Origin: an uncultured OM182 clade bacterium
GTDB lineage: Bacteria; Pseudomonadota; Gammaproteobacteria; Pseudomonadales; Azotimanducaceae
Direction of reading: 5' to 3'
DNA length: 64,000 bases
NCBI GenBank assembly: GCA_905182025.1
Contig: CAJJAA010000027.1
Span: forward strand, 50,302 to 114,301
Part shown: positions 14,573-32,790 of the stretch, in pieces
How positions within the stretch are numbered: position 1 is the stretch's first letter
How the letters are laid out: every line of letters begins with the position of its first letter
Program-made: the position numbers and the translations under genes
The notes under the pieces: generated by a model
What the model was told of the DNA's origin: nothing
The model's database searches: none
The model's input: only the letters and a program-made list of their open reading frames with translations

Positions 14573-15925
14573 TTGATCGAGTATGATTCAGTTGCTAGCA
14601 ATAACAATGAGGCAAGCTTCATGTCTGAAAATGAGAATTTAACGAACCGGCAGTTACAAGAAAAATATGCGATCGACGTTGATGTCGATCCATACTCTAT
14701 TCCACTGGACGCGTTAGACCCGTCACACCCGTCCTTGTTTGAATTCAATAAATTCGCCCCCTATTTTGATCGCCTAAGAGCTGAAGACCCGCTGCATTAC
14801 ACCCAAGATAGTATGTATGGCCCCTATTGGTCGGCAACAACATATAAAGACATCATGTATATCGACTCGCATCATGAGTTGTTTTCTTCTGACATTGATC
14901 AGGGTGGCATTCGTATGGGAGGCAGACCGACCGAATCTCCTTCGGCGGACTCGCCCTTTTATCTGCCGATGTTCATTATGCAGGACCCGCCGGTGCACGA
15001 CGATCAGCGCAAAGTTGTTGCGCCGTCTTTTACACCGAAACGCATCGCCGAACTGCGTCATCTTATCGTCGAACGTGCAGGTAAAATTTTAGACAATTTG
15101 CCGAGAAATGAAGAGTTCAATTGGGTAAAAGAAGTTTCCGTCGAGTTAACGGGACAAATGTTAGCAACGATATTTGATGTGCCGCAGGAGGATAGAAGTA
15201 AATTAATCTATTGGTCTGACACGGTAGAAAATTTAAGTAATCCTGATTTTTTTGAAACTGCCGATGAAGGCTTTGCTGAACTTTGGAAATGTTTCGAGTA
15301 TTTTGATGCTGTTTGGAAAGAGCGAGCGGCGCGGGCCGAGCCTGGCGACGATTTGATCTCTTCATTGGTGCATGGCGCCGCGACCAAAAACATGACCCCG
15401 AATGAATTTCTCGGCAATATGCTGCTGCTCATTGTTGGTGGCAATGATACGACAAGAAATTCAATAAGCGGTGGTGTGCTGGCGTTGAATCAACATCCTG
15501 ACCAGTATGCCAAGCTAATGGCGTCGCCGGCGCTTATCCCGAAGATGGTGCCAGAGATTATTCGTTGGCAGTCGCCTGTTGCACACATGTGTCGTACCGC
15601 AACGCAGGATGTAGAGATGCGTGGCAAGACAATTAAAAAGGGTGATAAGGTGGTGATGTGGTACATCTCTGGCAACAGAGACGCGACAGTTATTGATCGA
15701 GCAGATGAGTTTATTATTGATCGGCAGCACCCCCGCAGACATCTGTCATTTGGTTACGGCATTCACCGATGCGTGGGTAACCGATTGGGTGAAATGCAGC
15801 TTAATGTGCTCTGGGAGGAGATCGTGAAACGATTCCCCAAAATTGAAGTGGTTGGTGATCCCGTCTATTTAAAATCCCACTTTATCCATGGGATCCGCGA
15901 ACTGCCGGTTAAAATTCCCGGCTAG
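14573..15925 (+). CDS. Cytochrome P450, CYP153-like (possible start 14621)
   Basis: GGNDTTRNSISGGVLALNQHPDQYAKL I-helix; HLSFGYGIHRCVGNRLGEMQ heme-binding loop; EIIRWQSPVAHMCRTA. Confidence 0.88.
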   Translation: MIEYDSVASNNNEASFMSENENLTNRQLQEKYAIDVDVDPYSIPLDALDPSHPSLFEFNKFAPYFDRLRAEDPLHYTQDSMYGPYWSATTYKDIMYIDSHHELFSSDIDQGGIRMGGRPTESPSADSPFYLPMFIMQDPPVHDDQRKVVAPSFTPKRIAELRHLIVERAGKILDNLPRNEEFNWVKEVSVELTGQMLATIFDVPQEDRSKLIYWSDTVENLSNPDFFETADEGFAELWKCFEYFDAVWKERAARAEPGDDLISSLVHGAATKNMTPNEFLGNMLLLIVGGNDTTRNSISGGVLALNQHPDQYAKLMASPALIPKMVPEIIRWQSPVAHMCRTATQDVEMRGKTIKKGDKVVMWYISGNRDATVIDRADEFIIDRQHPRRHLSFGYGIHRCVGNRLGEMQLNVLWEEIVKRFPKIEVVGDPVYLKSHFIHGIRELPVKIPG

Positions 15926-17760
15926 ATCATATCGTCGTAAGGGTTTTCAACTTCGAGGCTAATTTTTTGACTGTGACCAGGGATTGAAATGCTGGTCTCA
16001 GTTAACTCGAGCTCTTCACCTTCAATGACCCCTAGGCCGAATTTATAAATGAGTTCGTTTTTGCCGGCAATCGTATCAACATCATATTGATGTGTACTTT
16101 CTGCGACCTTCTCATTGAGTTTTTGATGCTTTGTCATCGCGCTCTTGCCGTGTTTCTTTTCAAGCATTTGCGCGGTGACTGTCGGTGATAGAATTGACGC
16201 TGTTGCGTTATTTCCACCGAAGCCCTTTGAATTGATAAACACAGCATCCATTTTTGTTGGATCTATTTCTTTGTGTTGAAGCAAAAATTCCAGATTGCTG
16301 GCATGTACATCCTCTGCAATATGATCGACGGTTTTGATGCCGGGAATAATACCGTGCGCCCAGACACCAAGTGAAGTTGCAATCTGGTCACCGGCGGCGG
16401 TCGCCAGTGAGTGGCCAATATAGGCTTTAATCGCAGCGACGGGCCAATGGTCGATCTTAAATGTTTTGGCCAGTTCATTGATAATATGGGACTCTGTGAC
16501 TCGATTTTGCGGTGTACTTGTTCCATGAGCCTGAACGTAGGTGCGATTTCGTAGGGCCTCTTCTCCAAGTAACGATCGAACCATGCCCATGGATTTGCCC
16601 ATCGTCACATAGTTGCCGATTCCGGGTCCTGGAATGGACTTTTTGAATCCATCCGCATTGATAAACACATCGCCGACGGAGCCATAAATGTTCGCGCCTA
16701 ACTCTAATGCTAATTCATCATCAAACAGGATAACGAACTGCGAGGCTTCAGATAGTGTGAAACCACAGTTTTCAGAAAACGGCCGGCATGCGCGGGTGTT
16801 ATCCGTAGGGCCGACATGACCATCAAGTTTGTTTAAGGCGTCATCTTCGGCCAGAGCACCCATGGTGCGATAGCCTTCGATGACCTCAGGTGTGATTGGT
16901 GCTTCACTGGCGCCAACCATAACGGCGCGGAAGCGACCTGATCGTATGTCCTGAATACCTTGTCTTAGATTATAAAGGAACGTTGCGCAGGCGCCGACGT
17001 TTGCGCCCGTTGCACCAACGCTACCAAGCACATACGCATTGACAAAGTCGGCGGTCATCTCGGCTAAGCTGAGTGGACAGTTTTTCGAACTGACCCGTTT
17101 GCCGAGTAACGACGCCTGTAGCATGCCGCCTGCACCGTTGGTGTCTAGTTGGCCCATTGCACTGCTAGCGTAGACAGAGATTTGATCGCCGGGGACCTTC
17201 TGGCGAACAGTATCCCAGTCAATACCTAACGAATTTATTGCGTCTGAGGCGGCATAAACGGTGAGTTGAAGCCCCCTTGGATGATTTCTTGACTGGTACA
17301 AGGACCCAGGGTCAAAGCCGGTGGGTAATTGTCCCGCTGAATTGACTCTTGAAGCACGGTAGTCTGGGAATAATACATCCAGCGGCAAGCTTGATGTGAC
17401 GATCACACTAGAATCGTCCAGGTTGGTCACATGCCAGTCGGCGGGAATCTGTCCGGGCAGTTGACTCTTCTTGAGTTTGAATGAAAAACCATCGTTGTTT
17501 GATAACTGCGCTGTTTTATTTGTACGAATTGCGCTCGGGTCAAATAGATTTTTCTCAATCTGTCGAATGAGTGTCTGGGATAAAATCGCACCCTTGTCGA
17601 CGGTTGTCATATTCATCAGCGCCGCAAGAGACTGATAAGTGCTGTCAGCCTTATTGCTGTCCAGTTGGTCAATCACCATCCGCTTATAGGCGTGATGAGC
17701 GGAGCTGCGTCCGGCAGGGTTAATGCCGCCGAAACCGACAATGACGGGAAGGCGTGACAA
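15922..17760 (-). CDS. Long beta-ketoacyl synthase, FabY-like
   Basis: ~612 aa KAS with ATGANVGACATFLYNLRQ active-site Cys, VQAHGTSTPQNRVTES and KAYIGHSLATAAGDQ His motifs. Confidence 0.82.
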   Translation of the reverse strand: MSRLPVIVGFGGINPAGRSSAHHAYKRMVIDQLDSNKADSTYQSLAALMNMTTVDKGAILSQTLIRQIEKNLFDPSAIRTNKTAQLSNNDGFSFKLKKSQLPGQIPADWHVTNLDDSSVIVTSSLPLDVLFPDYRASRVNSAGQLPTGFDPGSLYQSRNHPRGLQLTVYAASDAINSLGIDWDTVRQKVPGDQISVYASSAMGQLDTNGAGGMLQASLLGKRVSSKNCPLSLAEMTADFVNAYVLGSVGATGANVGACATFLYNLRQGIQDIRSGRFRAVMVGASEAPITPEVIEGYRTMGALAEDDALNKLDGHVGPTDNTRACRPFSENCGFTLSEASQFVILFDDELALELGANIYGSVGDVFINADGFKKSIPGPGIGNYVTMGKSMGMVRSLLGEEALRNRTYVQAHGTSTPQNRVTESHIINELAKTFKIDHWPVAAIKAYIGHSLATAAGDQIATSLGVWAHGIIPGIKTVDHIAEDVHASNLEFLLQHKEIDPTKMDAVFINSKGFGGNNATASILSPTVTAQMLEKKHGKSAMTKHQKLNEKVAESTHQYDVDTIAGKNELIYKFGLGVIEGEELELTETSISIPGHSQKISLEVENPYDDMI

Positions 17761-21068: not shown

Positions 21069-22592
21069 ATGACCGTTGTAACGAAAGATGACCTGATTCA
21101 AAGTATTGCCGATTCCCTTCAGTATATTTCCTACTATCACCCGATAGATTTCATAACAGCATTGAATGAAGCCTATGAACGGGAAGAATCCCGTGCCGCC
21201 AAAGATGCGATGGCGCAAATACTTATTAATTCCAGAATGTGCGCGCAGGGCAATCGCCCGATTTGCCAGGACACCGGTATCGTAAACGTATTTCTGCAAG
21301 TCGGAATGGATGTTCGCTTCGAAACAGACATATCACTTGAAGATATGGTGAATGAAGGTGTCAGGCGAGCCTATTTGTTGCCTGATAATATCCTGCGTGC
21401 GTCTGTACTCGCCGATCCTGCCGGGAAACGCATTAACACCAAAGACAACACGCCCGCCGTCATATATACCGAGCTTGTGCCGGGCGACAAAATTGACGTG
21501 CACGTCGCTGCTAAAGGTGGTGGTTCTGAAGCTAAATCTAAACTTGTCATGTTGAACCCTGCTGACAGCATTGTTGACTGGGTAATCAAAACAGTACCGA
21601 CGATGGGTGCCGGTTGGTGCCCGCCGGGTATGTTAGGCATTGGTATTGGCGGCACAGCCGAGAAGGCTGTTTTAATGGCAAAGCGGTCATTGATGGATCC
21701 CATTGATATTCACGAACTACTTGCGCGTGGTCCATCGAATCGTGTTGAAGAGTTACGATTAGAAATATTCGATAAAGTGAACTCTCTCGGCATTGGTGCG
21801 CAAGGATTGGGAGGTTTGACTACGGTACTTGATGTGAAAGTGATGGATTATCCCACTCACGCGGCGAATCTGCCTGTTGCGATGATTCCGAATTGTGCAG
21901 CCACGCGTCATGCCCATTTTGTGTTGGACGGGTCGGGCCCAGCGGAACTTGAGGTTCCAAAACTCGAAGATTGGCCTGAAATTACCTGGGAAGCGGGACC
22001 CAGTTCTCGTCGAGTCAATTTAGATACAGTCACCAAAGAAGATGTGCTGCAATGGCAACCGGGTGAAACCCTGTTGTTGTCCGGCAAAATGTTGACCGGT
22101 AGAGATGCCGCCCATAAGAAAATTAGAGACTTGTTTGCAGAGGGTAAATCTTTGCCCGACGGCGTCGACCTAAACGGTAAATTTATTTACTACGTTGGCC
22201 CCGTCGATCCGGTAAGAGAAGAGGTTGTCGGACCTGCAGGGCCAACGACGGCGACGCGCATGGACGGCTTCACAGATATGATGCTCGAGAAAACCGGTCT
22301 GCTCGGCATGATCGGTAAGGCAGAACGTGGTCCCGTTGCAATCGAATCCATAAAAAACCACAAAGCGGTCTATCTAATGGCTGTCGGTGGCGCCGCTTTC
22401 CTCGTTTCGAAGGCAATACGTAAATCGAGGGTTGTTGCATTCGAAGAGCTTGGAATGGAGGCGATTCATGAATTTGAGGTGCAAGACATGCCAGTGACCG
22501 TGGCGGTTGATACGCAAGGGGAATCCGTTCATGTGTCGGGTCCCAAGTTGTGGCGTTCGAAAATCGGAAAATTACCAGTAGTAGAAATTTAA
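21069..22592 (+). CDS. Class I fumarate hydratase
   Basis: NRPICQDTGIVNVFLQVG, AAKGGGSEAKSKLVML, VGPAGPTTATRMDGFTD. Confidence 0.93.
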   Translation: MTVVTKDDLIQSIADSLQYISYYHPIDFITALNEAYEREESRAAKDAMAQILINSRMCAQGNRPICQDTGIVNVFLQVGMDVRFETDISLEDMVNEGVRRAYLLPDNILRASVLADPAGKRINTKDNTPAVIYTELVPGDKIDVHVAAKGGGSEAKSKLVMLNPADSIVDWVIKTVPTMGAGWCPPGMLGIGIGGTAEKAVLMAKRSLMDPIDIHELLARGPSNRVEELRLEIFDKVNSLGIGAQGLGGLTTVLDVKVMDYPTHAANLPVAMIPNCAATRHAHFVLDGSGPAELEVPKLEDWPEITWEAGPSSRRVNLDTVTKEDVLQWQPGETLLLSGKMLTGRDAAHKKIRDLFAEGKSLPDGVDLNGKFIYYVGPVDPVREEVVGPAGPTTATRMDGFTDMMLEKTGLLGMIGKAERGPVAIESIKNHKAVYLMAVGGAAFLVSKAIRKSRVVAFEELGMEAIHEFEVQDMPVTVAVDTQGESVHVSGPKLWRSKIGKLPVVEI

Positions 22593-22793: not shown

Positions 22794-25700
22794 ATGGAGC
22801 AAGAAAAGGCTTCCGTTGATCAATTGTATCTTGCCGCAGAAACGCTCGCGCAGGATTTTTCACTGTTTCCGAGAAAAGAGACTGCAGCGGTCATTAAGGG
22901 TCTGCTGACCGAGCAGCAAATCGAGATTGAAGTTGAGCGACTGCGTGGAATGGATGTTGATGCCTATATCGCAGCGGCAGTCAGTCCAGCCGAGGAAGGT
23001 ACGAGGGCAGGTGCAAAGGAGATTATTCAGGCGCTGGACGTTCCGATCTTAAGTGAAATGCAGGATGGTCCATTTTACACTGCAGTCGTTGAAATGAACT
23101 TCAATGGTATCAAGCGTCAAGTTGGCTTAATCGCGCAGGATCGAGCATTTGCCTCAGGTGTTTGGGGCCCAGAGCATCACACCCATGCTGCAGATGCCGC
23201 CGGTGATTATGCGATTCGATCCTTGCCCATTATCTGTTTTATGGATACACCGGGCGCTGATGGTAACGAACTTGCTAACGCGAACAATCAGGCGCATTCA
23301 ATTTCACAGCTTATTGCAGAACTATGTAATGTTGATGTGCCAACGATTGGTATTGTTGCAGGTCAAGGCTATTCCGGTGGTGCGATACCATTAGCCGCAG
23401 GCAATTTGTTGCTTTCTCTTCGAACCGGCGTGTTCAACACGATTCATCCTAAGGGCCTCGCTAACTTGGTGCGTCGATATAATTTGTCTTGGCAAGAGTG
23501 TGCCCAATCGGTGGGTGTGTCGTCTTATGAGCTTTATAAGCAGGGTAATATTGACGGCATTATAGACTACGACCCTGGCGAGACTAACAATATCGCTAAT
23601 CTGCGGAACGCAATGGTGTCGGGTATATTGTCGATTGAAGAAAGTACGCGAGAATTTGTTAGTGATCATCCTGAAATACTTGATCACTATCAGCGCAATA
23701 TTAATCGCTATTTGCACCCCTCTGAATCTCTGTCAGCGGTTCACGCTAGCTCGAACCTGAAGTTGCGAACTTCCCCTACGCAATACCCGAATGTATTTGG
23801 TGTTGCCTATCGATATCTACGTTACTTAGGCCTAAGACGTCGAATCAAAAGTATAAACTTAAGTCAGTATGGTCGCTTAGCATCTGTTGAGCTGCCGGAA
23901 GGCGAGTTGTTTCAGCGCGTTCGTCGTGAACGTCGAACGGCCTTTCTCGATTGGTTACTCGACCCCGATAAAATTCTCTATGAGGATACACTGAACAAAG
24001 CGTGGAAGAACTACGTTGATAAGAAAGCCGTGGTCGGCGACGAGCGTGGTCGGTTTGCTCAGTTAATATTTGGTGAGCCAACAAAGAACTATGAGAATGC
24101 TAAACGTGATCTTTGTTTGCAATGCGGGTTACATCTTTATAACCGTTGGAAGGCAAGCTCAACAGCGAACCTAGAGGCGTTGATAGAACATATCGGCGAC
24201 CAGGATGCGAATGCCTATCTATTGAAAGTTTCTGATATTCGCGACGTCAAGGCGCTACTGCGCACTATGGTGTCGACAGATCTTGCGTTTGTTGTGAAGC
24301 TAAAGTCTCAATTCACCCACGAAGGCAAGAAACTTTTCGGCAAGGATTATATCAACGAAAAAGCGGAGGATTTTCTCGCCACTCAGCTAGCCTCGGAATT
24401 GAATCTTATAATCGAAGAAACGAGTCTCTACGACACGAGTGTCCTGTCCGACGAGACACTTTCTGATTATGCTCAACAACTTATTGCGCAGGGCGGTTAC
24501 GAAGAAAAGCCGTTGAAGCTCAATCGACGCTTACTCGAAGACACAATGTGGTCATACATCAGTCGAAAGACGGATGTCGAACAAGCAAAAACAGACCAGA
24601 ATCGAACTATTTTGGACGTTGTACTTGATGAAGATATTCGAGAGGATTTCGTTCAGGAATGTCAGAATTTAATCGTCTTCAGTCATGTTTACGACAATCT
24701 AATCGGCCAGTTGGCTGTCGTTGCTAAGCAGGCGCAGGACTCTCGAACACTATCTAAAGAGTTCATTGAAGAACTTGTGAATAAAGCTATCGGTGATATG
24801 AATGCAGATGAAGGCTTTAAAGACATTGGCGAAGAGGAAATTAAACGTCGATTTTCTGCATGGATTACTGGGCTGTCTAGTCACGCGGTCAGTGCGACAT
24901 TCTTAAAGTCTGTTGAAGAATGGATTCGTGTTGTTCACAAGGATAAATCCGACACGCTGTTTGTTGTCGTGAGTTTTTTCTTCGAGAAACTATTGCCCGA
25001 ATACTATGCGTCCCAGTCGGGCACGAAGCGCTACGAAGGAAAAGTTGAGCCCGTCAGGATTGGTCGTCGTAAAGATTTTTGGAATCGCCTCACCATTGCC
25101 TATCGAGATCAACTGTTCCATGAGATTTTGACGAAAGAAAAGCGTAGCGGTCGGACGACTTTTGAAACCCTGTTAGATAAGTATGTGTCTAACTTCCAAG
25201 AGTTGAATGGCGATCTAATGTCATCTAACCCCGTCGCTTTTCCGACATTCAGGCCGTCTATTGAATCCGCATTGAAGAACGGCGTGAGACCACACGGCCT
25301 TGTTACAGGTATTGGTGACTTTGATACGGGTACTGGCTGCTATAAGGTCGGTCTCGTTATGCCAAATGTTGCGTTCCAGGCTGGTAGTATCGACAGCTCT
25401 GACTGCGTTCGGTTTTGCAAGCTGCTGGTTGAATGTGCGATACAAAGACTTCCCGTTGTATGTTTTATTTCTTCCGGCGGTATGCAAACCAAAGAAGGCG
25501 CGGCAGCACTCTTTACGATGGCGGTTGTGAATGATCGGATTACTCGATTCGTTCGAGACAATGATCTGCCGATCATTATGTTTGGCTATGGTGACTGTAC
25601 CGGCGGTGCACAGGCAAGTTTTGTGACACACCCATTGGCACAAACTTATTATTTTACGGGTACGAAAATGCCTTTTGCTGGTCAAACGGTGATCGAGTCG

Positions 25701-27704
25701 AACCTACCATTTACCTGCTTAATGAGTAACTACCTTTCGGTCAAAGCCGGTGCGATGGCTGGCATGGTTAAACATCCGTTCTCCGAGGATCTAGATAACC
25801 AGTTGCAGAGTGTTGACCCAGCCTTACCTATGCCGACGGAAACGATTGAGCAGGTTGTCGAACGCATCATGTCTGGCTCATTGTCGCCGTCAGAGCCTGT
25901 CGTTAAAAACATCACGATGTCTGAAGCTGAACTTATTCGCCCGATAAAACGCACGCTAATTCATGCACGCGGTTGTACCGCGGTGAAGTTAGTTTCTAAA
26001 GCCAAAGAATTTGGCTACGAAGTTGTATTGGTTCAGTCAGATCCTGATATGGATTCTGTTCCTGCTGATATGGTTCGAGATGACCCCAAACACGCGCTTG
26101 TTTGTATAGGTGGTAATACTTCTGATGAGAGTTATTTGAATGCACTGAGTGTATTAAGTATCGCTGAAGCGCAGCAGGTCGACTCATTGCACCCGGGTAT
26201 TGGTTTTCTTTCTGAAGACCCGAATTTTGCCAAGATTGTTCGTCAGCGGAATTTAAATTTTATTGGTCCTAAAGTTGTCAGCATGGAAACAATGGGTAAT
26301 AAATCTAATGCGATTAGTACGACCATGAGCATTAATGTGCCGGTAGTTCCTGGTAGTCACGGTATTGTCGATACGCCCGAGCAGGCTGCGGAGATTTCGG
26401 AAAAAGTTGTTTACCCTGTGCTATTAAAAGCTGTCCACGGCGGCGGCGGTAAGGGTATTCAGGTCGTCAACAAACCCGAAGAAATTCACTCGTTGTTCCA
26501 CCGAGTCCGTGCCGAAGCCAAAGGTGCTTTCGGAAACGGTGATGTTTACATCGAAAAATTTGTTACCTCTCTGCGTCACATCGAGGCACAGATTCTTAGG
26601 GATACACATGGTAATTGTAAGGTGCTGGGTATTCGAGACTGTAGTGTGCAGCGGAATAACCAAAAGCTGATGGAAGAGTCAGGCTCAACAATGCTGCCTG
26701 AAGAGCTGAAACAGATGGTTTATGAATATGCCTATAAGATCGCCGATACGGTTGATTATATTGGTGCTGGAACTGTCGAGTTTATCTATGACGTGCCGAG
26801 TAATGCTATTTACTTTATGGAAATGAATACGCGCTTGCAGGTTGAGCATCCGGTAACGGAAGTTGTGACAGGCATCGATATAGTTCAAAAACAATTTGAA
26901 ATAGCGTCAGGTGCATCAATAGCCGATTTGGAGCCAAGCGAGACGGGTTATGGCTTGGAAGTTCGAGTTAATGCTGAGAAAACGGTGCTCGATTCAGAGG
27001 GCAATGTTTCCTTCACGCCAACGCCAGGTGAAATCACTGTCTGTGAATTGCCAGAGCAAGAGGGCTTCCAGCTGATCTCAATGGCAGGCGAAGGAAAGTT
27101 TGTTTCGCCCTTCTATGACAGTTTGATTATTCAAATCATTTGCCATGGAACCGACCGAAAAGATGCGACTGAAAAAATGTTTGCGTATCTTGAACGGGTC
27201 AAGATTCACGGTATTTGCACAAACATCAGTTTGATCAAACGTATCTTGAAAGATGATGAGTTCCAAAATGGCATTTATGACACCAGCTACCTTCCCAAGT
27301 TTTTAAGTCGCATCGACGTTAATGCGCTGATCGAGGAGGTTGAAGAAGCTTCTGGTATGGCCGGTGGTGCACTTGATATCGAAATGCTGAAGATTGAGGG
27401 CAGTGATGAGCTAAAGGTTCTTTCACCTTCAACAGGTGTTTTCTATCGGACCCCTTCACCTTCAGAGCCTGATTACGTGAATGTCGGCGATGTCATTTCT
27501 ACTGAAGATGTTATGTGTCAGCTAGAGGCGATGAAAATGTTTACGCCGATGAACTTGAGTACATTTTCGAGTTTAGATGGCGAGCTTTATCCGTCAGCTC
27601 AACAGTACAAGGTGACACGCATCAATCAGACCGGCGGCCAGCAGGTCAACGAGGGCGACCTGCTCTTTGTGATCAAGCCAATGCTGACTGCGACGTCAGC
27701 CTAG
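22794..27704 (+). CDS. Single-chain acyl-CoA carboxylase: CT-alpha-like, unassigned region, CT-beta-like, biotin carboxylase, biotinyl domain
   Basis: CT-alpha: DTPGADGNELANANNQAHSISQLI / GQGYSGGAIPLAAGN; CT-beta: ISSGGMQTKEGAAALF / GDCTGGAQASF; BC: LLKAVHGGGGKGIQVV / FMEMNTRLQVEHPVTEVVTGID; biotinyl LEAMKMF (Lys codon 27534). Confidence 0.9.
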   Translation: MEQEKASVDQLYLAAETLAQDFSLFPRKETAAVIKGLLTEQQIEIEVERLRGMDVDAYIAAAVSPAEEGTRAGAKEIIQALDVPILSEMQDGPFYTAVVEMNFNGIKRQVGLIAQDRAFASGVWGPEHHTHAADAAGDYAIRSLPIICFMDTPGADGNELANANNQAHSISQLIAELCNVDVPTIGIVAGQGYSGGAIPLAAGNLLLSLRTGVFNTIHPKGLANLVRRYNLSWQECAQSVGVSSYELYKQGNIDGIIDYDPGETNNIANLRNAMVSGILSIEESTREFVSDHPEILDHYQRNINRYLHPSESLSAVHASSNLKLRTSPTQYPNVFGVAYRYLRYLGLRRRIKSINLSQYGRLASVELPEGELFQRVRRERRTAFLDWLLDPDKILYEDTLNKAWKNYVDKKAVVGDERGRFAQLIFGEPTKNYENAKRDLCLQCGLHLYNRWKASSTANLEALIEHIGDQDANAYLLKVSDIRDVKALLRTMVSTDLAFVVKLKSQFTHEGKKLFGKDYINEKAEDFLATQLASELNLIIEETSLYDTSVLSDETLSDYAQQLIAQGGYEEKPLKLNRRLLEDTMWSYISRKTDVEQAKTDQNRTILDVVLDEDIREDFVQECQNLIVFSHVYDNLIGQLAVVAKQAQDSRTLSKEFIEELVNKAIGDMNADEGFKDIGEEEIKRRFSAWITGLSSHAVSATFLKSVEEWIRVVHKDKSDTLFVVVSFFFEKLLPEYYASQSGTKRYEGKVEPVRIGRRKDFWNRLTIAYRDQLFHEILTKEKRSGRTTFETLLDKYVSNFQELNGDLMSSNPVAFPTFRPSIESALKNGVRPHGLVTGIGDFDTGTGCYKVGLVMPNVAFQAGSIDSSDCVRFCKLLVECAIQRLPVVCFISSGGMQTKEGAAALFTMAVVNDRITRFVRDNDLPIIMFGYGDCTGGAQASFVTHPLAQTYYFTGTKMPFAGQTVIESNLPFTCLMSNYLSVKAGAMAGMVKHPFSEDLDNQLQSVDPALPMPTETIEQVVERIMSGSLSPSEPVVKNITMSEAELIRPIKRTLIHARGCTAVKLVSKAKEFGYEVVLVQSDPDMDSVPADMVRDDPKHALVCIGGNTSDESYLNALSVLSIAEAQQVDSLHPGIGFLSEDPNFAKIVRQRNLNFIGPKVVSMETMGNKSNAISTTMSINVPVVPGSHGIVDTPEQAAEISEKVVYPVLLKAVHGGGGKGIQVVNKPEEIHSLFHRVRAEAKGAFGNGDVYIEKFVTSLRHIEAQILRDTHGNCKVLGIRDCSVQRNNQKLMEESGSTMLPEELKQMVYEYAYKIADTVDYIGAGTVEFIYDVPSNAIYFMEMNTRLQVEHPVTEVVTGIDIVQKQFEIASGASIADLEPSETGYGLEVRVNAEKTVLDSEGNVSFTPTPGEITVCELPEQEGFQLISMAGEGKFVSPFYDSLIIQIICHGTDRKDATEKMFAYLERVKIHGICTNISLIKRILKDDEFQNGIYDTSYLPKFLSRIDVNALIEEVEEASGMAGGALDIEMLKIEGSDELKVLSPSTGVFYRTPSPSEPDYVNVGDVISTEDVMCQLEAMKMFTPMNLSTFSSLDGELYPSAQQYKVTRINQTGGQQVNEGDLLFVIKPMLTATSA

Positions 27705-27955: not shown

Positions 27956-28687
27956 TTAGCTAAACAGATCCATCATTCCTTTGGCTATGTACAGCAGTCC
28001 AATGGCCATAATTAGGTATCGGCCAATCAGTTTGAATTGGTGATCATCTATTCTCTCCACTATCGTTTTTCCGATAGCGTTACCGGCGATAGCAGCGATA
28101 ATGACGCCGGTGTAAACCCAAACCGGCAGCGTAATGCTGAGGGAGAAGAAATAGGCGTAGTAACTCAGTTTAATCATATGACCGAGTGTTTGGGTGATCG
28201 CTTTAGTGCCTAAAATTTCGTGTCGAGTCAAACTGCTTTTGACGTAGAAAACATCGAGTACCGGGCCGGAGGCTCCCGCGAGCATTTGTGCCAACGTCAC
28301 TACGATACCCGATAGAAACGCGATGCAGGTTCGCTGCATATCCAGATTGATGTTAGTCGGCAATGCCATTGCGAGAAAAGGAAAGCTGCCAATCACAATA
28401 AAGATAAGTGCCTTGTCAGGCACGAGTGTAAGCCAGATAAAGAGCAGAAGTACGATAAGACTGCCCAGGCCGTAGGGTATTAACACGGTCCATTTAATAT
28501 GCCGACGGTAGAGCCAAACACGGGAGCCATTAGAGAAACTTTGCGCTATGCCGTGCAGAACCATCGCTGCCGGCACGGATAGGAACAGGCTAAAAACACC
28601 CATCAGTATCATACCGCCGGCCATACTAAGGACCCCTGAGATAAGACTGGTAGCAAGTGTTGCTAAAAGTAGCAGTAAATAACTCAT
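27956..28687 (-). CDS. TauE/SafE-type permease
   Basis: Multi-TM; FLSGIVVTLAQMLAGASGPVLDVFYVKSSLTRHEILGTKAITQ. Confidence 0.85.
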   Translation of the reverse strand: MSYLLLLLATLATSLISGVLSMAGGMILMGVFSLFLSVPAAMVLHGIAQSFSNGSRVWLYRRHIKWTVLIPYGLGSLIVLLLFIWLTLVPDKALIFIVIGSFPFLAMALPTNINLDMQRTCIAFLSGIVVTLAQMLAGASGPVLDVFYVKSSLTRHEILGTKAITQTLGHMIKLSYYAYFFSLSITLPVWVYTGVIIAAIAGNAIGKTIVERIDDHQFKLIGRYLIMAIGLLYIAKGMMDLFS

Positions 28688-28785
28688 AGTGTGAATGCCC
28701 GAGCGCGTTTTAGCATAATATGAGATTCAACCTATGATAAAAGAGAATATGTAGAATAGAATGTATATCTTTGTGGAATGCTTTG

Positions 28786-29631
28786 ATGATTGAGAATCTG
28801 GAAACCCTGCTAGCGCTCTCTCGCACCGGCACAATGCTCGAGGCGAGTACGGAATTACGTGTTTCTCAGTCAGCTGTGAGCAAGCGAATTGCTGTCTTAG
28901 AAAAATACTATGCCCGCAAGCTTATTCAGAAGAAGGGGCGGCGGGTCGAGTTGACCCAGCATGGTCAGCAATTAGTCGATAAAATATCGCCGATTCTGTC
29001 GGAGCTTAGAGATCTGTTCGTTGATGATATGAATGCCAGCAAAGGTGAGCTCATTATCGGCGTGTCAGAAGCCATTCTTTCTTCTTGGGGTCCTAAAACC
29101 TTTATTCAGGTTCAAAGTGAGATGCCGGAAGCTCATTTCGTTTTCCATACTCACCGCACCCCGGTGGTGCTGGATAGAATACGTTCCGGTGAGTTTATGG
29201 CAGGGGTTTGTACGGGTTCAGATAATCACGATACTGATCTGCAGTCTGAGGTGCTGTTTCATGAGCCGATGGTTATCATTCCTTCAGCCCTTGAGAAGCT
29301 CAAATGGCCGCAGCAGGATAGTTTGGATGTGATCACGATTGAGGACTATTCGGGCGCCTGGCGCTCGTTTAAAGATGAAGCGGCTCGACTAAAGATCAGA
29401 AGGTCCGTGTCACTCGAATCCTTTTTCAGTGTCGCCCAAATGGCGATTGCCGGGTTTGGTCATGGCTTGGTGCCGATTGGCGTGGCTCAGACATTGAAGG
29501 TGCCTGATGATTGCCTGATTAATCTAAGTCAATCAGGCTTGAGTCGGCCTGTGCGCTTTGTTGCACGAAAGTCTACCTATTCACTGCCGATCGTAACCAA
29601 CTTCTACCAATCGTTAAGTCGAAAGCTTTAG
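28786..29631 (+). CDS. LysR-family transcriptional regulator
   Basis: N-terminal HTH MIENLETLLALSRTGTMLEASTELRVSQSAVSKRIAVLEK; divergent from the TauE/SafE gene. Confidence 0.9.
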   Translation: MIENLETLLALSRTGTMLEASTELRVSQSAVSKRIAVLEKYYARKLIQKKGRRVELTQHGQQLVDKISPILSELRDLFVDDMNASKGELIIGVSEAILSSWGPKTFIQVQSEMPEAHFVFHTHRTPVVLDRIRSGEFMAGVCTGSDNHDTDLQSEVLFHEPMVIIPSALEKLKWPQQDSLDVITIEDYSGAWRSFKDEAARLKIRRSVSLESFFSVAQMAIAGFGHGLVPIGVAQTLKVPDDCLINLSQSGLSRPVRFVARKSTYSLPIVTNFYQSLSRKL

Positions 29632-29686: not shown

Positions 29687-31099
29687 CTAATAAGAGTAGG
29701 TGTTGCCGTCATTATTGGTCAGAGTAAGTCTGTTGATATCCGATGATTCGGTATGACCGATCCGCTTTGCATCGATTCCATAACTCTCGGCAATTGAAAT
29801 CAAATTATCGACTTGATCTTCGGGGACATAAAGCTCCATGCGGTGGCCCATATTATAAACCTTATACATTTCCTCCCAGCGGGTGCCGGATGCTTTTTGA
29901 ATCGCATCGAACAAAGGTGGCGTGGGAAATAAGTTATCTTTCACAAAATGCACATTGCGGCCAAACTTGACGCACTTTGTTTGCGCCCCACCTGAACAAT
30001 GAATGATGCCTTTTATATCCGAGCCAATTTCTTTCAATGCGGTTTGAATGACAGGTGCATAAGTGCGGGTTGGGCTCAGAATTGCTTCACCAACAGAGAG
30101 TGCCGAATTCGGCAGGGCATCTTCAAGTTTGTAAGGGCCACAATAAACGAGTTCCTTCGAGACATTGGGGTCGAAAGACTCTGGATAGTTTTCGGCATAG
30201 TAGTGGCTCAGCATATCGTGTCTTGCACTGGTTAGACCATTGCTGCCAATACCGCTGTTAGCATTGGATTCATAGGACGCTTGACCCGTTGACGAAAGCC
30301 CGACGATTGCCAGATTTGATGTGATTTCGTTCCGCACGACATCATCTTTCTTCATGATGGCGACAGCGCATGAGTCAACGACAACCGTACCCGTCAGATC
30401 GCCAACGTCTGCCGTTTCTCCGCCGCCAGAATAGATATTAATACCTAGGTCTCGTAGTTGTGCCATGAAGGACTCACTTCCTTCAATAAGTGCTGAGACA
30501 ACCTCACCCGGGCAATTAAGCGCGTTGCGATTAATGGTGTTTGAAATGAGTATGCGACCATTAATGCCGACGCACAGGAGATCATCCAGGTTCATAACAA
30601 TACTGTCTTGAGCAATGCCATGAAAAACTGAAGCATCACCCGTCTCTTTGTATTTCAAATAGGCGATGATAGATTTCGTGCCGCTGCCGTCCGCATGGAT
30701 GATGTTGCACTTCTCTGGATCACCGCCGAGGTAATCTTCCGTTATTTTGCAAAATGCACCAGGAATGCTGCCGGCGTCCAGACGATCGACCACGTTATGC
30801 ACTTCTGACTTGTCAGAACTAACTCCTCGAGCTTGATACCGACTGTTCGGAGAGCGATCTGAGGCGATGGCGACGGTGAATCCAGATCGATCCTTTGCTT
30901 CGATGACGCCGCGAAACTCGAGTTGCCTTAGCGCTTTTGCGACCGTATTGGCCGCAAGCCCGTTATCTTTGGCGAGATTGCGAATACTGGGCAGCTTTTC
31001 TGCCGGGGCTAATTCGCCCGTGTTAATTGAAAAATGGAGCTGGTCGATAATTTGCTGGAAAACAGGAATGGGTGACGTGTTATCGATAGCGAGTTTCAT
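29687..31099 (-). CDS. GntR-type winged-helix domain fused to PurM-like AIR synthetase domain
   Basis: N-terminus [76 protein letters not shown] (GntR wHTH); then [24 protein letters not shown]...[16 protein letters not shown]...[10 protein letters not shown]...[13 protein letters not shown]...[13 protein letters not shown]...[12 protein letters not shown] (PurM). Start at 31099 chosen over ORF-track 31276. Confidence 0.88.
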
Positions 31100-31129
31100 A
31101 ATGTCCGGTGGCCTGATGAATAGACTAAT

Positions 31130-31149
31130 TGTATTAATCTGATAATACA
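31130..31149. promoter_or_regulatory. Perfect inverted repeat TGTATTA-N6-TAATACA, candidate operator for the GntR-PurM protein
   Basis: TGTATTA ATCTGA TAATACA, 30 nt upstream of the ATG at 31099 (minus strand). Confidence 0.6.
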
Positions 31150-31390
31150 GATAAGCGGGGCACATGAACAGACCTAGCCGCCTCGAGTTTGCTTTCGAAC
31201 GCCTTTGTTGGCCGTCCTGTTTGTCTGACATCAAGCCACGTGGGCAATTTACTAGAAGGCGAGGTAGATACAGCAAATTATCTGAGCTGAATCGCGAATT
31301 ATTACGTGCGATCTTCTATAATGCCGCCTTTCAAATATCCGGCAATGCTTGGATACATTTAGGTTTTGGTTATATTGAGGTGTGCTTTGC

Positions 31391-32017
31391 ATGCGTGTTG
31401 CGATAGTTGATTATGATGCAGGCAATCTGCGAAGCGTTCAGCGAGCCTGCCAAGCGGTAGGGCTGGATGGATTCATTACGGCCTCGCCTGAGGAAGTGTT
31501 AGCGGCGGATAAAATCATCTTCCCCGGTGTTGGCTCTTCAGTAAGCGCAGTCGATACCCTGCACGATCGTGGTTTGTTTGATGTGTTGATCGAAGCTTTT
31601 CATAAAGGAACACCGCTGCTTGGCATCTGTTTGGGTAGCCAGATTGTGCTTGAACATACAGAAGAAGGTGACAAGGATTGTTTGGGTCTTATCGACGGTG
31701 TGGTTGAGCGTTTCGACTTTGCCGATCGCACCTATAAAGTGCCACATATCGGTTGGAACGAAATCAACATTGCTCAGCCTCATCCCTTACTGCGACAGGT
31801 CGAAGATGGTGATGAATTTTATTTTGTTCACTCCTATTTTACTCGTCCGACTCAGCAAGCCAATGTCGTTGCCACGACAGACTACAACATTAATTTCTGT
31901 TCGATTCTGGCAAAGGACAATTTGTTTGCGACTCAATTTCACCTCGAGAAAAGCGGTAGGAAAGGATTGAGCATACTTGCTGAATTTGCGTCATGGGAAG
32001 GAGGTTCAACATGCTGA
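31391..32017 (+). CDS. hisH: Imidazole glycerol phosphate synthase, glutaminase subunit HisH
   Basis: [58 protein letters not shown]. Confidence 0.92.
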
Positions 32018-32790
32018 GTAAACGTATTATTGCCTGTTTGGATGTCAGGAACGGCATGTTGGCGAAGAGTGTTAAGTTTGTTGATACGAAAGACATCGGT
32101 GACCCAGTAGAGAAAGCGCAAGAGTACTATGAAGATGGCTTAGATGAGTTGGTCTTTTATGACATCACCGCCTCCAGTGATGATCGCAACATCATGCTTG
32201 ATGTTGTTGAAGAGGTGGCGAAAAAAGTTTATATCCCATTTTCAGTGGGCGGTGGTGTTCGATCAGTTGAGGACGCGTCAAAACTATTATGGGCCGGTGC
32301 CGAGAAGATCAACGTCAATTCGGCTGCGGTAAAGCGGCCTGAACTAATTGCTGAGTGTGCCCACGCAATAGGTAATCAAAACGTCGTTCTGTCGATGGAT
32401 ATCCTGCGCCGAGAAGAGTGTCGTGAGTTTCCTAGCGGATATGAAGTCGTTATCAATGGTGGTCGCACCCCGATGGGTGTCGATGCTCTGGCCTGGGCCC
32501 TGCAAGGTGAATCATTAGGCGCAGGTGAACTCGTTGTTAACTCGATTGACGCAGACGGAACACGAGAGGGTTATGAAATTAAGCTGACGAGAATGATAGC
32601 TGAAGCGGTATCCATTCCTGTCATTGCTTCCGGCGGTGCAGGAAAGCCGGAACATTTGTATGAAGTCCTAACGGAGGGTAAAGCGGATGCTGCGCTCGTT
32701 GCCTCGATGGTGCACTATGGTGAGTATACCGTCAGTCAACTTAAGCAGTGGCTGCACGACAAGGGTGTAAAGGTTAGGCTGAAGTACTAG
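32011..32790 (+). CDS. hisF: Imidazole glycerol phosphate synthase, cyclase subunit HisF
   Basis: [60 protein letters not shown]. Confidence 0.92.

Follow-up and report, generated by a model that had tools for sequence, protein, structure and literature searches.

Acetyl-CoA carboxylase is essential, serves as a drug target and starts fatty acid synthesis. A long gene from an uncultured OM182 clade bacterium, which appears to encode all the parts of such a carboxylase in one chain and in an uncommon order, raises the question of what its product does and whether it stands in for the usual subunits. The gene lies in the window, the 64,000-nucleotide stretch of DNA analysed here, and forms a single intact frame of 1636 codons that opens with ATG (Table 1). 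A Pfam scan places ACCA at residues 143-262, three biotin carboxylase (BC) domains at 1051-1501 and Biotin_lipoyl at 1542-1586, to which the NCBIfam scan adds accD. When the E. coli subunits AccA, AccD, AccC and AccB are aligned with HHalign to an alignment of the relatives of the window protein, they fall on residues 108-263, 857-996, 1051-1505 and 1541-1628, respectively. These placements show that the original prediction was right about the order, in which a carboxyltransferase (CT) alpha half is followed by the CT-beta half, the BC domain and the biotinyl domain (A-D-C-B). The LEAMKM motif that it assigned to the biotinyl domain is borne out by EAMKM, which contains Lys1581 (27534-27536), and an AccB-type FYRTPSP segment is found in the same domain. 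Full-length relatives with an identical domain order occur in about 20 other genomes, most of the relatives being known from assembled metagenomes.

Table 1. Features of the accS locus, numbered by position in the window
Feature	Position	Strand	Basis
accS, single-chain acetyl-CoA carboxylase, order A-D-C-B	22794..27704	+	1636 aa ORF; full-length 9kkm AccADCB match
CT-alpha (AccA-like) domain, residues 108-263	23115..23582	+	Pfam ACCA 1e-21; HHalign E. coli AccA E 1e-14
Central all-helical region, residues 264-790	23583..25163	+	AlphaFold2 model
Long-form insert, residues 469-594	24198..24575	+	Gap in 9kkm alignment
CT-beta (AccD-like) domain, residues 790-992	25161..25769	+	TIGR00515 3.7e-15; HHalign E. 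coli AccD
Biotin carboxylase domain, residues 1051-1505	25944..27308	+	Domain scans; HHalign
Biotinyl (BCCP) domain, residues 1541-1628	27414..27677	+	HHalign E. coli AccB E 1.2e-14, 37% identity
FabY-like beta-ketoacyl synthase	15922..17760	-	PDB 4cw4 E 2.6e-192, full length; in 14 accS loci
LysR-type regulator, likely ATG 28789	28771..29631	+	Pfam HTH_1, LysR_substrate

A phmmer search of PDB sequences gives one outstanding match, the 1517-aa "Acetyl-CoA carboxylase multifunctional enzyme AccADCB" (9kkm/9w4a), whose alignment to 9kkm covers window residues 7-468 and 595-1630 (491.8 + 1273.4 bits). Foldseek, queried with a model of the N-terminal 1040 residues only (mean pLDDT 70), likewise has 9kkm as its top match (E 4.8e-65, TMq 0.72, 43% identity) and describes it as the Shewanella oneidensis acetyl-CoA carboxyltransferase holoenzyme dimer (release date 2025-11-19). 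The S. oneidensis protein was solved by cryo-EM, and it is judged, by its organism, its name and its size (PMC11602165 gives about 170 kDa), to be the product of accS, the gene of a single-chain acetyl-CoA carboxylase described in 2024 (Xu et al., PMC11602165). S. oneidensis without the accS activator has low AccS and grows more slowly, and this is cured by accS or by E. coli accA, accD and accBC together (PMC11602165). The match to S. oneidensis AccS places the window protein in a described family, so that the novelty claimed for its architecture does not hold: the order had a name and an assigned function, and its genetics and regulator (PMC11602165) as well as a cryo-EM structure (9kkm) are known. 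The term acyl-CoA carboxylase can be made more specific, acetyl-CoA carboxylase being the likely function. The window protein is thus very probably a single-chain acetyl-CoA carboxylase of the AccS family, in its long form, with a housekeeping role and predicted activity, and its substrate, activity and dimeric state would be those of the Shewanella enzyme, from which they are taken by analogy.

Catalytic motifs are conserved across the relatives in the CT-alpha half (DTPGA, GxGYSGGA), the CT-beta half (SSGGMQTKEG, GDCTGGAQAS), the BC domain (GNK, KAVxGGGGKG, EMNTRLQVEHPVTE) and the biotinyl domain (EAMKM), and the BC lysines, EMNTRxQVEHPVTE and the CT glycine pairs are all conserved as well. 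This conservation supports ordinary biotin-carboxylase chemistry and makes a working acetyl-CoA carboxylase, which would produce malonyl-CoA for fatty acid synthesis, the best reading of the sequence. With ATP and bicarbonate, the BC domain would carboxylate the biotin attached to Lys1581 in the C-terminal biotinyl domain. The biotinyl domain would then swing to an active site that the AccA-like half and the AccD-like half build together, and there acetyl-CoA would receive the carboxyl group and become malonyl-CoA. The AccD zinc ribbon was looked for in the window protein and is missing, a single CxxC (441) being present versus two in E. coli AccD. The BC part carries HARGCTA where E. coli AccC reads ANRGEIA; the motif stands in 31 of 31 AccS sequences and is, on sequence grounds, a useful signature of AccS.

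Between the CT halves, residues 264-790 yield only chance-level Pfam matches and no known domain, and the AlphaFold2 model (mean pLDDT 70) shows them as helical. We infer a scaffold role for this region: as in S. oneidensis, it would keep the CT halves and the BC part together within a dimer. Its length differs between family members owing to an insert at window residues 469-594, which measures 100-126 residues in long forms and 6-9 in short forms. Besides the window protein, 18 relatives, some represented by partial sequences, have the long form; the short form is found in Psychromonas, Pseudomaricurvus, an Alteromonadaceae MAG, a Desulfuromonadales MAG and others; 9kkm likewise lacks the stretch. 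In a tree built from the region common to both forms (29 rows, root arbitrary), two changes between long and short are needed. Setting the long form against the solved Shewanella structure offers a comparison for the role of the central region.

The gene sits, as originally predicted, downstream of a class I fumarase in a lipid-rich neighbourhood. The fumarase gene (21069-22592) is directly upstream and co-directional, followed further upstream by a MaoC dehydratase and then, on the minus strand, by a desaturase, a thiolase and the FabY-like synthase; with the exception of the desaturase these genes stand beside accS in 11-14 related loci. The structure matched by the synthase is presumably that of P. 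aeruginosa FabY. In P. aeruginosa FabY starts fatty acid synthesis (PMC12323585). No divergent LysR gene of the AccR type adjoins accS in the window, where the upstream neighbour is the co-directional fumarase. A LysR gene is present downstream and co-directional, as it is in 14 related loci (33-129 bp gap in seven), and its product is a candidate regulator of accS. Its identification with Shewanella AccR is unsupported by position, AccR being divergent and upstream, and it may correspond to a second LysR gene, co-directional near accS in many organisms, to which no role was assigned by Xu et al. (PMC11602165). A TauE/SafE-type permease gene (27956-28687, minus strand) between accS and the LysR gene occurs in some relatives and is absent in others, and therefore looks like an insertion into the accS-LysR pair. 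The minus-strand gene at 29687-31276 encodes a protein in which a GntR-type DNA-binding domain is joined to a PurM/AIR-synthase-like one, an unusual case of an enzyme-like domain on a regulator, and is found together with the adjoining hisH/hisF-like pair (31382-32790) in about 12 related loci.

The window genome (3.1 Mb, 54 contigs) has no accA or accD beyond weak matches to AccS and to PCC/MCC-type CTs, although at 87% completeness this absence alone is weak evidence. Among the 28 genomes examined, namely the window genome and 27 carriers, canonical accA and accD are missing in 25; both are present in two Desulfuromonadales genomes and in Pseudomaricurvus, where AccS cannot be the sole acetyl-CoA carboxylase. 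AccS stands in place of canonical accA/accD with exceptions among the other carriers (G021, G022, G027 and G176). The Desulfuromonadales genome G021 (locus L026) contains several accS-like stretches beside canonical accA/accD, which suggests a separate role there. At the level of the class, AccS is found in 5 of 276 genomes; canonical accA is absent in four of these five carriers and present in 264 of the 271 non-carriers (Fisher p 7e-6 when the window genome is counted, 1.4e-4 when it is left out). Seven non-carriers likewise have no accA above the cut-off, three of them being genomes of 0.3-0.4 Mb. Within the family of the window genome, canonical accA above the cut-off is found in none of 61 sampled genomes, two of which are single-contig assemblies, and 55 have a weak fused-type accA match, which nearly always falls within a long open frame, mostly one of about 1500-1700 aa. 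The remaining six have no accA match at all, and four of them keep accB; either assembly gaps or a different enzyme may be responsible. In four Psychromonas genomes no Carboxyl_trans gene is found apart from accS, which leaves accS as the only candidate acetyl-CoA carboxylase there. In the family of the window genome, AccS appears to be the housekeeping enzyme that stands in for AccA and AccD.

The BC and biotinyl subunits have had a different fate. Intact and adjacent accB (149 bits) and accC genes are found in the window genome (C22, L049:8492-10377, minus strand) in the order aroQ-accB-accC-prmA-dusB, which we take to be the usual gammaproteobacterial arrangement. AccS may therefore not supply all of the BC activity in this organism. 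accB is present in 40 of the 61 family genomes, with no match in the other 21, and in 9 of the 27 examined carriers, including the three that have canonical accA/accD. It looks as if AccA and AccD were replaced first and AccBC was kept as a relic or for another CT. Possible users of AccB-AccC are the products of two orphan PCC-type CT genes at C36 and C40 (L052:3039-4595, minus strand, and L053:2941-4542, plus strand), neither of which has an adjoining BC gene. Besides AccS, the window genome encodes two CTs of about 520 aa, an LCC-type single-chain carboxylase and an MCC pair, and any of these enzymes might make malonyl-CoA too. The LCC-type protein (C35, L051:2715-6140, minus strand) has 1141 aa in the order BC-BCCP-CT and is distinct from AccS, so that two differently built single-chain carboxylases are encoded in one genome.

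There is a small but real chance that long-form proteins make up an AccS subtype of their own, in which the insert and the downstream LysR give different control and AccB-AccC feed carboxybiotin to AccS or to the orphan CTs. If true, acetyl-CoA carboxylase would have settled into a stable half-replaced state throughout a bacterial family. A hybrid, in which the CT halves of AccS use carboxybiotin from the retained AccB-AccC in addition to that from their own BC and biotinyl domains, would account for accBC being kept, and it is consistent with the intact accB-accC pair between aroQ and prmA and with the presence of accB in 40 family genomes when canonical accA is missing in all 61. It is nonetheless unlikely, since the fused BC and biotinyl domains retain their catalytic motifs, the 21 family genomes with no accB match imply that AccB is not needed in general, and the orphan CT genes at C36 and C40 provide AccB-AccC with possible alternative partners.

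It is more improbable still that AccS is a catabolic or secondary carboxylase of propionyl-CoA or longer acyl-CoAs, with housekeeping malonyl-CoA coming from elsewhere. The CT-alpha half is nearer to AccA than to the PCC/MCC CT (ACCA 77.9 versus Carboxyl_trans 50.4 bits), and although other carboxyltransferases in the window genome could meet the housekeeping need, canonical accA is found in 0 of 61 family genomes. Similarly, the coexistence of AccS with canonical accA/accD in the Desulfuromonadales and Pseudomaricurvus carriers has to be set against the Psychromonas genomes, which have no other CT gene, and against the Shewanella genetics (PMC11602165). An assembly chimera or a decaying, functionless fusion can be dismissed: the window genome is incomplete and in 54 contigs, but the same full-length frame recurs in numerous independent assemblies, including two that consist of a single contig, and the relatives in about 20 other genomes speak against both a frame artefact and a chimera, as do uninterrupted frames and invariant catalytic motifs against decay.

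With AccS read as a housekeeping acetyl-CoA carboxylase, a mostly uncultured gammaproteobacterial family has apparently dropped AccA and AccD in favour of a single-chain enzyme. With accB persisting in many of its members, the family offers a natural example of the piecemeal replacement of an essential complex. The contrast in domain order that had been drawn with E. coli acetyl-CoA carboxylase, PCC/MCC and the eukaryotic enzyme was correct. Every subunit of the E. coli enzyme (AccA, AccD, AccC, AccB) is homologous to a domain of the window protein, but there they are four separate chains, with the zinc ribbon in AccD and ANRGEIA in AccC. The eukaryotic enzyme likewise combines BC, BCCP and CT with a large helical non-catalytic region in one chain; however, its order is BC-BCCP-central-CT with CT-beta before CT-alpha, whereas the window protein runs CT-alpha, helical region, CT-beta, BC, BCCP, and assignment to the eukaryotic type is therefore rejected. 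The LCC type (Tran 2015, cited in PMC6491548) is also a single-chain bacterial biotin-dependent carboxylase, but it has the order BC-BCCP-CT and a PCC-like CT, unlike the window protein, and is rejected on the same grounds. The closest known system is S. oneidensis AccS (PMC11602165; 9kkm, 9w4a), which shares the four domains, their order and the single chain with the window protein, is homologous to it over nearly the full length and has the same catalytic motifs in the matched parts. What is new in comparison is a longer version, with about 125 extra central residues, that seems to replace the usual carboxyltransferase subunits across a bacterial family. The divergent LysR activator AccR adjoins accS upstream in Shewanella and in some other genera, which is not a property of the enzyme, whereas the window locus has a different LysR gene downstream and co-directional, and the window genome differs further from the S. 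oneidensis system in retaining accBC.
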